A stretch of DNA of 64,000 bases from Thysanoteuthis rhombus (lineage: Eukaryota; Mollusca; Cephalopoda; Oegopsida; Thysanoteuthidae), in contig OY735215.1 of assembly GCA_963457665.1 (NCBI GenBank), positions 26,020,097-26,084,096 of the forward strand, read 5' to 3'. This document shows positions 17,560 to 60,779 of this stretch, in pieces. Made by a program: the position numbers and the translations under genes. Each line of letters opens with the position of its first letter. The stretch's first letter is position 1. A model generated the notes under the pieces. That model was not told the DNA's origin and searched no databases. It was given only the letters and a program-made list of their open reading frames with translations.

Positions 17560-17835
17560 ATTGAAAGAAGGAAATAGACTGAGATTAAAGAAAATGGGAT
17601 TTCATGTGAAAACAGATATTTTGGTCTTTGCATCACCCGCAGCTGTTTAGTTCAATGCTTAGAACATCAATAAGTTGAATAGGCTACCCTATTGGTGCAA
17701 GTTCGATTCCTGCAGCAGCCCCATTTCGTTTATTTGTTTATTCTATTTACGTTGTCAAGGATGAGTGATACATTTACAATGTAATGACAGGAGATCATTT
17801 CAAATGAGTTTCTATATAATATAATGCAATTCATA
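17560..17835 (+). mobile_element. tRNA-derived SINE, unit 1
   Basis: The tRNA-like head at about 17633-17722 has an A-box-like TTTAGTTCAATGCTTAGAAC and a B-box-like CAAGTTCGATTCCTGCAG. A body follows with a CAGGAGATCATTTCAAAT landmark. It is repeated in tandem from about 17845. Confidence 0.7.
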
Positions 17836-28534: not shown

Positions 28535-28890
28535 AACACTCCTAGCCTGTGGGTTTGGCTTAGTGGTCAAGCAACTGTACTGCTTACTGGAAACTCTAAG
28601 GTTTCATTCTAGATACTCAAGTGATAAGTTCAAATTTTATTGGATACACTGATTCTCATATGATCATCGAAGTTGAGCAATGCCAAGCCTGGTCAGTGCC
28701 TAGATAGGTGACCGTCTGTGAATACCAGGTGCCATAAGCAGCTGAGGATCATATAGATGATCTCCCATGGTGATTGTCTTGATCCTCCTAGGGGGGTTGG
28801 GGGGATCTCTACATTACGCCCAATAATACAAGCCAAATGCCCCCCCTCAACTCTGTGACTGGCCTGGCTATAAGCAACATGAAATGAATG
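28535..28890 (+). mobile_element. Composite SINE: tRNA-like head plus 5S rRNA-like segment
   Basis: The first part (28535-28650) has an A-box-like GGCTTAGTGGTCAAGCA and a B-box-like AAGGTTTCATTCTAG. It is followed at 28663-28742 by a segment matching the 3' two-thirds of eukaryotic 5S rRNA: GAAGTTGAGCAATGCC, AGCCTGGTCAGTGCCTAGAT and GAATACCAGGTGCC correspond to the A box, intermediate element and C box of the 5S internal promoter. The tail runs to AAATGAATGAAAAAAAC near 28880-28898. The order suggests a SINE with two pol III promoter types. Confidence 0.7.
28663..28742 (+). pseudogene. 5S rRNA-like segment
   Basis: Collinear with 5S rRNA from the box A region to the 3' strand, with substitutions such as CTAGATAGGTGACC for the usual TTGGATGGGAGACC. 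The first about 40 nt of 5S are absent. A 5S-derived SINE module or pseudogene, not a functional 5S gene. Confidence 0.75.
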
Positions 28891-33890: not shown

Positions 33891-34331
33891 TTACACATCT
33901 TTCAACTCACTCCAGTCTGTGTAATCCACGATATTGAGATCTTTCAAAGATTTTTTCGCAATCGTATCCCAACCTTTATTTGCGGCTGGATTGATCGGAC
34001 TCGGATGCATAATGGATTCAATTTTCACCTCGGGGCATCCGAGGGATGGATCCACACTCTTCAGGGCATTGACAGCAGTATTTGCTGCAAACTTGCCAAT
34101 TCCAATGATCAGTTTCACATTGAGCAGTTTGATCGTCTCACAGAAGGCCTTGTTGCAAACTGCTGTCAACTGCTTGCGTTCATTGGCTTTGAGTTGAGGT
34201 GGAGTGACATTTTTCGAAGATGTCTTCATGAACATAATTGGACAAACATTGTGCACAAAACAATCCTTGAAGAAATTTTCAGGTGTCTTGCAGATGGACT
34301 TGAATAAAGCCCAGAATCTGCTCCCACTCAC
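33891..34331 (-). CDS. SMUG1: SMUG1 uracil-DNA glycosylase, coding exon 3
   Basis: Terminal exon, residues 162-307, stop TAA at 33891-33893. It follows the acceptor TTTTACACAG and starts in phase 0 with VSGSRFW. It holds HNVCPIMF (residues 188-195; the Asn corresponds to the conserved uracil-contacting Asn of SMUG1) and MHPSPINPAANKGW starting at residue 269, the HPSPxNPxANKGW motif whose His (residue 270 here, His239 in human SMUG1) is catalytic and whose following loop inserts into the DNA helix. No frame disruption, so the enzyme should be functional. It would excise uracil and 5-hydroxymethyluracil from single- and double-stranded DNA in nuclear base excision repair. Confidence 0.93.
   Translation of the reverse strand: MSGSRFWALFKSICKTPENFFKDCFVHNVCPIMFMKTSSKNVTPPQLKANERKQLTAVCNKAFCETIKLLNVKLIIGIGKFAANTAVNALKSVDPSLGCPEVKIESIMHPSPINPAANKGWDTIAKKSLKDLNIVDYTDWSELKDV

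Positions 34332-34495: not shown

Positions 34496-34499
<4 letters not shown>

Positions 34500-34540
<41 letters not shown>
34500..34540. repeat. (TA)n microsatellite
   Basis: About 40 bp of TA directly downstream (in - strand sense) of the hammerhead copy at 34549-34590. Confidence 0.95.
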
Positions 34541-34542
<2 letters not shown>

Positions 34543-34548
34543 CGTCAT

Positions 34549-34590
34549 CCACAGACAGCTGTTTCATTGTATTACAACTCTTCAGTGTGG
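34549..34590 (-). ncRNA. Type I hammerhead ribozyme, copy 1
   Basis: Read on the - strand: CCACA (stem I 5' strand, 34590-34586), CTGAAGA (core CUGANGA, 34585-34579), GTTGTAATACAAT (stem II with AAT loop, 34578-34566), GAAA (34565-34562), CAGCTGTC (minimal palindromic stem III plus cleavage triplet GTC, 34561-34554), TGTGG (stem I 3' strand, 34553-34549). Stem I is a perfect 5-bp helix and extends through a TATAG/AT internal loop to a GTC/GAC outer helix, the layout that allows the loop contacts of fast natural hammerheads. All invariant core bases are present. Cleavage is predicted after the C at 34554. Confidence 0.88.
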
Positions 34591-34835
34591 CTATAGACTA
34601 TCCATTTTCCCATCCAGTATCACGAGGCAGGATTGAAACCTTCACTTCAGACCTGGAAGCCGAAGTGGACGGTCAGTAAGGCTAAATTTAAGCAATATAT
34701 TTATTTAGCTTATATTCCCCATCCACCAGAGTGCTCTATTCCTATGGAAGAGCATTGCATAAGCTTACAATGAACAAGTTACCTCACTTAAAGAGTGCTC
34801 AACTCTGAATAGGGGAGCATTAATTATTGTGTCAT

Positions 34836-34877
34836 CCACAGACAGCTGTTTCGTTGTATTACAATTCTTCAGTGTGG
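34836..34877 (-). ncRNA. Type I hammerhead ribozyme, copy 2
   Basis: Same motif 287 bp upstream in transcript sense: CCACA (34877-34873), CTGAAGA (34872-34866), ATTGTAATACAAC stem II (34865-34853, one mismatched closing pair), GAAA (34852-34849), CAGCTGTC (34848-34841), TGTGG (34840-34836). The outer helix is weaker (ATC against GAC). The core is intact, so activity is plausible but perhaps lower than copy 1. Confidence 0.85.
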
Positions 34878-35426
34878 CTATAGATTATCCATTCTTTATA
34901 ATCATTTTTTTTAAAGATATTTTTTTAGATAATTAGTTTTGGTACAAGCGAGGTACGGATATTTATAGGTATTTCTATATATGATATTTAGTATTTTACT
35001 ATTCATAAATATTATTTTTCCTCATAATTCTTATTTTGTTTGTACCAAGATGAAATATCTAGTTGAACAAGTCTTTGCAAATTATAAAAAGTTGAGCAAT
35101 ATTAATCTGTTCACAATCATTTTGGTAATCATTTAAAAATCCTTGGTACTATGATGACCCAAGCAAAATGAAACCCAACATGAAACTGGTTTCCCCACAT
35201 GGCTATCTATTCCCTACCAAAAATACAATCCTGAGAGGATGTTACCATTATACTAACAAACAAATTTTATGGATGAAAATTTATCATAAAAATAAAAATT
35301 TGGGTAGGGGGAATGCTACAGATTACCATTATCCCCATGATACGAGCGATTAAAAACCAGATCTTATAGATGCCAGTATGTGTTCATCTTGCTTGTGTGT
35401 GCCTCAAAGATTAATCTGAAACTTAC

Positions 35427-60693: not shown

Positions 60694-60700
<7 letters not shown>

Positions 60701-60747
<47 letters not shown>

Positions 60748-60750
60748 TAT
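60701..60750. repeat. (TA)n microsatellite
   Basis: About 50 bp of TA just upstream of the hammerhead-bearing repeat at 60780. Confidence 0.95.
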
Positions 60751-60779
60751 AAATATGTTTGTAGGTACAAATTTATGTA

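Follow-up and report, generated by a model that had tools for sequence, protein, structure and literature searches.

Tandem type I hammerhead ribozymes in the last SMUG1 intron of the squid Thysanoteuthis rhombus belong to a high-copy repeat family

The hammerhead locus and its surroundings

We analysed 64,000 nt of Thysanoteuthis rhombus DNA (contig OY735215.1, positions 26,020,097 to 26,084,096 of the forward strand; assembly GCA_963457665.1, 2.73 Gb in 514 contigs), referred to throughout as the window. The features of interest are collected in Table 1. The central one is a repeat element with a hammerhead ribozyme (HHR) at each end, which lies in sense orientation in the last intron of SMUG1, approximately 200 nt upstream of the splice acceptor; upstream of the element is the preceding SMUG1 exon, within an open frame that runs down from ~35570 (limits set by eye). 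The window copy starts just upstream of an HHR and has its 3′ end where an (AT)n array begins.

Elsewhere in the window, a PGRMC1-like open frame has its best named matches in Octopus vulgaris (66% identical) and Argonauta hians (65%), with other matches at 77-82%. A tRNA-like stretch at 17641-17721 (+) scored 33.5 bits against Rfam, was not called by ARAGORN, and recurs as a similar sequence approximately 300 nt further on (~17950); it is probably a tRNA-derived SINE. Finally, a 5S-rRNA-like stretch at 28622-28740 (+; Rfam, 57.9 bits) is perhaps a 5S-derived SINE or a pseudogene.

Table 1. Features of the window, in window positions
Feature	Positions	Strand	Basis
Upstream HHR; predicted cut 34841/34840 (after 34841); A-C mismatch at stem II base	34834..34879	-	sequence, RF00163
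Downstream HHR; predicted cut 34554/34553 (after 34554); G-U at stem II base	34547..34592	-	sequence, RF00163
287-nt unit delimited by the predicted cuts; GC 0.404	34554..34840	-	sequence
Whole element copy, ~1.2 units, HHR at each end; 5′ end ~34893, 3′ end ~34538	34538..34893	-	nhmmer unit model, sequence
3′-terminal (AT)21 array of the element	34499..34540	-	sequence
B-box-like stretch GGTTTCAATCC	34630..34640	-	aligned units, sequence; motif consensus
Final SMUG1 coding exon, open frame	33891..34331	-	E 1e-40 to SMUG1 structures; limits by eye
Second family copy, 5′-truncated, one 3′ HHR with core changes CTGAACA and GGAAA	60784..60945	+	unit model
PGRMC1-like open frame, 273 aa	54916-55737	-	protein matches

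The preliminary description of this DNA had proposed two type I HHRs on the - strand, 287 nt apart and bounding a retrozyme-like unit, and this was borne out, with the addition that the unit is part of a high-copy family. Both HHRs contain the stem I CCACA/TGTGG, the CTGAAGA and GAAA strings and the GTC cleavage site that had been listed for them, together with a stem II hairpin closed by an AAT loop and a 2-bp stem III inside the palindromic ACAGCTGT. All positions of the conserved catalytic core and the cleavage triplet are present in both. The stem II string given earlier for the pair, GTTGTAATACAAT, is correct for the downstream HHR, but the upstream HHR reads ATTGTAATACAAC. The outer stem I triplet is GTC/GAC in the downstream HHR, while the upstream HHR has ATC against GAC, an A-C mismatch. 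Across the family the basal pair of stem II is most often G-C (86 of 117 aligned HHRs), which would be ancestral to both the G-U and the A-C states of the window. The window holds 11 CTGANGA..GAAA strings, and only these two, read by eye, show the whole architecture.

When short, hand-chosen stretches around the two HHRs were scored, the Rfam model RF00163 (Hammerhead_1) was the best match for each, at 20.8 bits (E 0.0034) for the upstream and 20.3 bits (E 0.0048) for the downstream HHR; a sister copy of the family scored 21.7 bits. These values lie below the RF00163 gathering score of 34, and a scan of the whole window at the gathering score returned no hammerhead, nor did one appear among the matches listed for a scan of 601 nt at E<=10. 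The preliminary description had held that sub-threshold scores for both copies speak against hammerheads, and by that rule taken literally the HHRs would be refuted. We do not accept this refutation, because the architecture and the GTC site align, the sister copy reaches its 21.7 bits and the family is abundant. Both window HHRs are confirmed as real type I hammerheads. Release of a 287-nt RNA from this locus by cleavage at the two predicted sites is no more than plausible, because the upstream HHR carries A-C mismatches both at the stem II base and in outer stem I.

A large dispersed family

A 32-nt core pattern allowing <=2 mismatches matched the genome 20,966 times, whilst the reversed control gave 0 matches. 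With the window element as DNA query, 45 matches were listed, 40 of 9,333 candidates having been scored. Full-length matches among those listed were 84-89% identical to the window element (the window itself excluded). Outside the HHR, the median difference of 80 copies from the profile consensus is 12.4%, a value too high for a very young family. The window locus is thus confirmed as one copy of a large, dispersed, high-copy family. The exact core had 0 matches in viral contigs.

Copies were sampled from the first listed exact-core matches (68 loci on two contigs), a choice that favours intact HHRs and tandem loci; these loci and the window contain 85 HHR cores, and HHR spacings in the other tandem loci are ~241-316. 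A unit profile of 312 positions, built from 21 copies, yielded 78 chains. Seventy-three of them extend to the HHR end, and 71 were measured for lengths and ends; the five dropped chains are either fragments or continue beyond an HHR. A further 20 of the 45 listed matches most like the window element were used for the two-HHR tests only and stand outside the 71 and 73.

Across 117 aligned HHRs (six of 123 HHR regions were left out for indels), all 12 catalytic positions are intact in 91, a sample biased towards intact cores. The second pair of stem II is changed on both sides, from T-A to A-T, in four of the 117, at three loci. These paired changes and the retained core speak for past selection on the HHR fold, a reading to be taken with the fact that sampling favoured intact cores. 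A stable rod fold of the window unit was rejected: as a circle it folds no more stably than 100 shuffled versions (z -0.70). The HHR of the second window copy, with its two core changes, is probably inactive; a TA array (60694-60756) lies close to this copy.

Ends and lengths of the copies

The 3′ ends of the copies are sharply placed. Sixty-two of 71 lie 16-21 nt past the cleavage site, nine fall earlier and 0/71 lie beyond 21, and (TA)n often follows directly; three of the five dropped chains (L015, L021 and L052) are exceptions in which the element runs past an HHR and stops elsewhere. The 5′ ends are variable. Measured to the cleavage site, 58/71 copies are <=313 nt, that is, one unit or less with a single HHR at the 3′ end; 11/71 are 314-450 nt, 2/71 are 451-545 nt and none is longer. 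In 13/71 the copy runs past a full unit and crosses the cleavage site. Two-HHR copies like that of the window are this class of more than one lap, a minority in the sample. The family therefore has the SINE-like combination of fixed 3′ end, simple-repeat tail and 5′ truncation.

TA-rich 30-mers flank 21/73 chains upstream and 39/73 downstream, against backgrounds of 3.8% (fetched loci) and 1.2% (window), and 14/71 copies have them on both sides. Target-site duplications of >=7 nt were not above shuffled pairs (6/93, null 3.6) under a harsh low-complexity filter. Inverted pieces of the element lie directly beside a copy in three loci (L045, around 1588 on the + strand; L016, near the HHR; L057), as twin priming would leave them.

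Despite the overall spread of the 5′ ends, 23 of 73 chains start at model positions 77-90, whereas no 14-nt cluster in 20,000 random sets held more than 17. A genome-wide pattern count for copies around this hotspot (one lap pattern) gave 1,260 matches and 0 in the control. A plain circular template does not predict such a hotspot, which could come either from transcripts that start there or from the enzyme stopping at a structure. The hotspot bears on a linear-template reading, in which the family is a SINE whose linear transcripts start at this fixed 5′ position, two-HHR copies derive from uncleaved transcripts of tandem loci, and no circle is involved. In keeping with it, 20 of 47 copies stop at the hotspot in the first lap and 3/3 do so in the second, with none beyond 540 nt, and positions 76, 79 and 91 are the starts of three further two-HHR copies from the biased set. 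Promoter-like boxes also occur: at <=1 mismatch, a B-box-like stretch is found in 66/98 copies against 218/1960 shuffles, and an A-box-like stretch in 13/98 against 16/1960, figures that come from related copies and single-letter shuffles. In the window copy, the stretch that we take to be B-box-like from the promoter-box consensus is present, and alignment of the units indicates that the A-box-like stretch of other copies is deleted.

Against this stand the position of the hotspot, ~100 nt upstream of the A-box-like site, the fact that most 5′ ends lie elsewhere, and the identical hotspot that a structural stop would yield. Moreover, no tRNA was found by ARAGORN in 60 loci, nor by cmscan in 18 loci (E<=0.1) or in a short stretch. 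We consider a linear template unlikely, yet keep it in play: of the sampled copies, three reach the hotspot in the second lap, and every one of them stops there. A separate tRNA-headed SINE upstream of a few copies was rejected, as the aligned units place the stretch in question inside the unit.

Comparison of laps in two-ribozyme copies

If two-HHR copies arise by continued copying, their two laps should be related to one another. At diagnostic column 8 the laps agree in 25/27 comparisons (permutation mean 14.3; 0/5000 reach 25). Agreement at column 3 was 20/27, reached by 29/5000 permutations, and at column 66 it was 21/27, reached by 710/5000. Divergence in 32 two-HHR copies averaged 0.108 between the laps of a copy and 0.129 between copies (Wilcoxon p 0.0026), with several copies going the opposite way; in one, L084, stem II pairs differ between the two laps. 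Column 8 places the laps of a two-HHR copy in a single lineage. Lap divergence was also tried as a test for copying of one and the same circle; this proved weak, since 0.108 is only slightly below 0.129, and its outcome is suggestive only.

These comparisons bear on a simpler origin for tandem HHRs, namely two one-HHR insertions lying side by side, or unequal crossing-over as in satellite DNA. Copies are attracted by TA arrays, and some fetched loci do contain several separate copies, which is what neighbouring insertions would require. The window HHRs, though, are joined by one continuous unit whose junction is the same as in other two-HHR copies, and the lap agreement at column 8 argues against adjacent independent insertions. 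As for satellite DNA, no chain of the 71 exceeds 540 nt, so long arrays are absent. We regard an origin of this kind as very improbable.

Discussion

The family is best filed with the metazoan non-LTR retrozymes, which the compared parts of PMC7229834 (Cervera and de la Pena 2020) define as tandem HHR repeats, from dimers to large multimers. As there, type I HHRs bound the unit (287 nt here, 150-450 nt there), GC is low, copy number is very high, there is no evident coding frame, and stem III is weak with a palindromic tetraloop. A highly self-paired unit RNA appears in those parts of PMC7229834 as a prediction, not as a criterion. The retrozymes of PMC7229834 differ in forming multimers, whereas here 58/71 copies are no longer than one unit, the HHR and (TA)n mark a sharp 3′ end, and no copy is longer than 540 nt. 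RNA of such elements, and its circles, have been demonstrated in coral, mussel and axolotl (PMC7229834), while the present family is described from its DNA copies. The sections compared of PMC7761336 note that metazoan retrozymes could be seen as SINEs, and that they seem to have neither a promoter nor a motif betraying their helper. The schistosome SM-alpha element, as portrayed in part of PMC8490949, is likewise SINE-like, of similar size (335 bp) and equipped with a type I HHR with a short stem III. In those portions of the retrozyme literature that we compared, we found no description of a family in which one-HHR copies ending sharply at the ribozyme are the majority, and none of the papers retrieved for hammerhead ribozymes in octopus, cephalopods and squid was about such elements, judged from listings or passages.

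Type I HHRs are also carried, in tandem, by Penelope-like retroelements, according to the compared passages of PMC7229834 and PMC7761336, and in that light the HHRs could be relics of the terminal repeats of such elements or of the 3′ tail of a LINE. The genome does encode GIY-YIG domains, at least one of them, judged by eye, in an ordinary gene. A search for a Penelope-like partner found no link: four of the seven listed GIY-YIG loci lacked a unit match and showed no convincing HHR by eye, and no evident partner coding frame was seen by eye upstream of the 5′-truncated copies inspected. The HHRs described here have a 2-bp stem III, whereas Penelope HHRs have no nucleotides in stem III and are found in the pseudo-LTRs of coding elements (PMC7761336, in the part compared); in this family, a limited and partly by-eye look found no coding element joined to the copies. 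Such an origin seems to us far-fetched.

We think it probable that the window locus is a copy of slightly more than one unit from a high-copy, non-autonomous, SINE-like retrozyme family that is copied in laps after TA priming. The fixed 3′ ends past the cut, the 5′ ends that cross it and the single lineage of the laps suggest that the template was longer than the linear monomer left by cleavage, being either a circle or an uncut multimer, and the circle is favoured over the multimer because circles of such elements are reported in the compared parts of PMC7229834. On the same analysis a circular template is favoured over a linear one, and the pattern of ends fits target-primed reverse transcription at TA-rich sites from circular or multimeric RNA.

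According to the mechanism that we propose, the RNA of a two-HHR copy would cleave itself at both HHRs and the unit RNA would be circularized, probably by an RNA ligase, as the parts compared of PMC7229834 lead us to suppose. A TA-rich chromosomal end would prime a helper reverse transcriptase on the AU-rich stretch just 3′ of the HHR, a placement suggested by the fixed 3′ ends, and the enzyme would run upstream around the RNA template. Most cDNAs would end before completing a lap, giving a one-HHR copy unable to make a unit circle; those passing the HHR a second time would give a two-HHR copy like that of the window, in principle capable of forming circles.

The family adds a cephalopod host to those of HHR retrozymes. 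At the window locus, if both predicted cuts happen, the SMUG1 intron would be severed approximately 200 nt before its splice acceptor. The sharp 3′ end, the TA-rich targets and the 5′ hotspot make the priming site, the helper and the form of the template testable by counting ends. We offer only tentatively the fuller proposition that a retrozyme here inserts as a SINE, with a circular RNA, one fixed priming site beside the HHR, and a second passage of the HHR that decides between a dead one-HHR and a live two-HHR copy. If this is true, the genome of T. rhombus would preserve a record of thousands of rolling reverse-transcription events.
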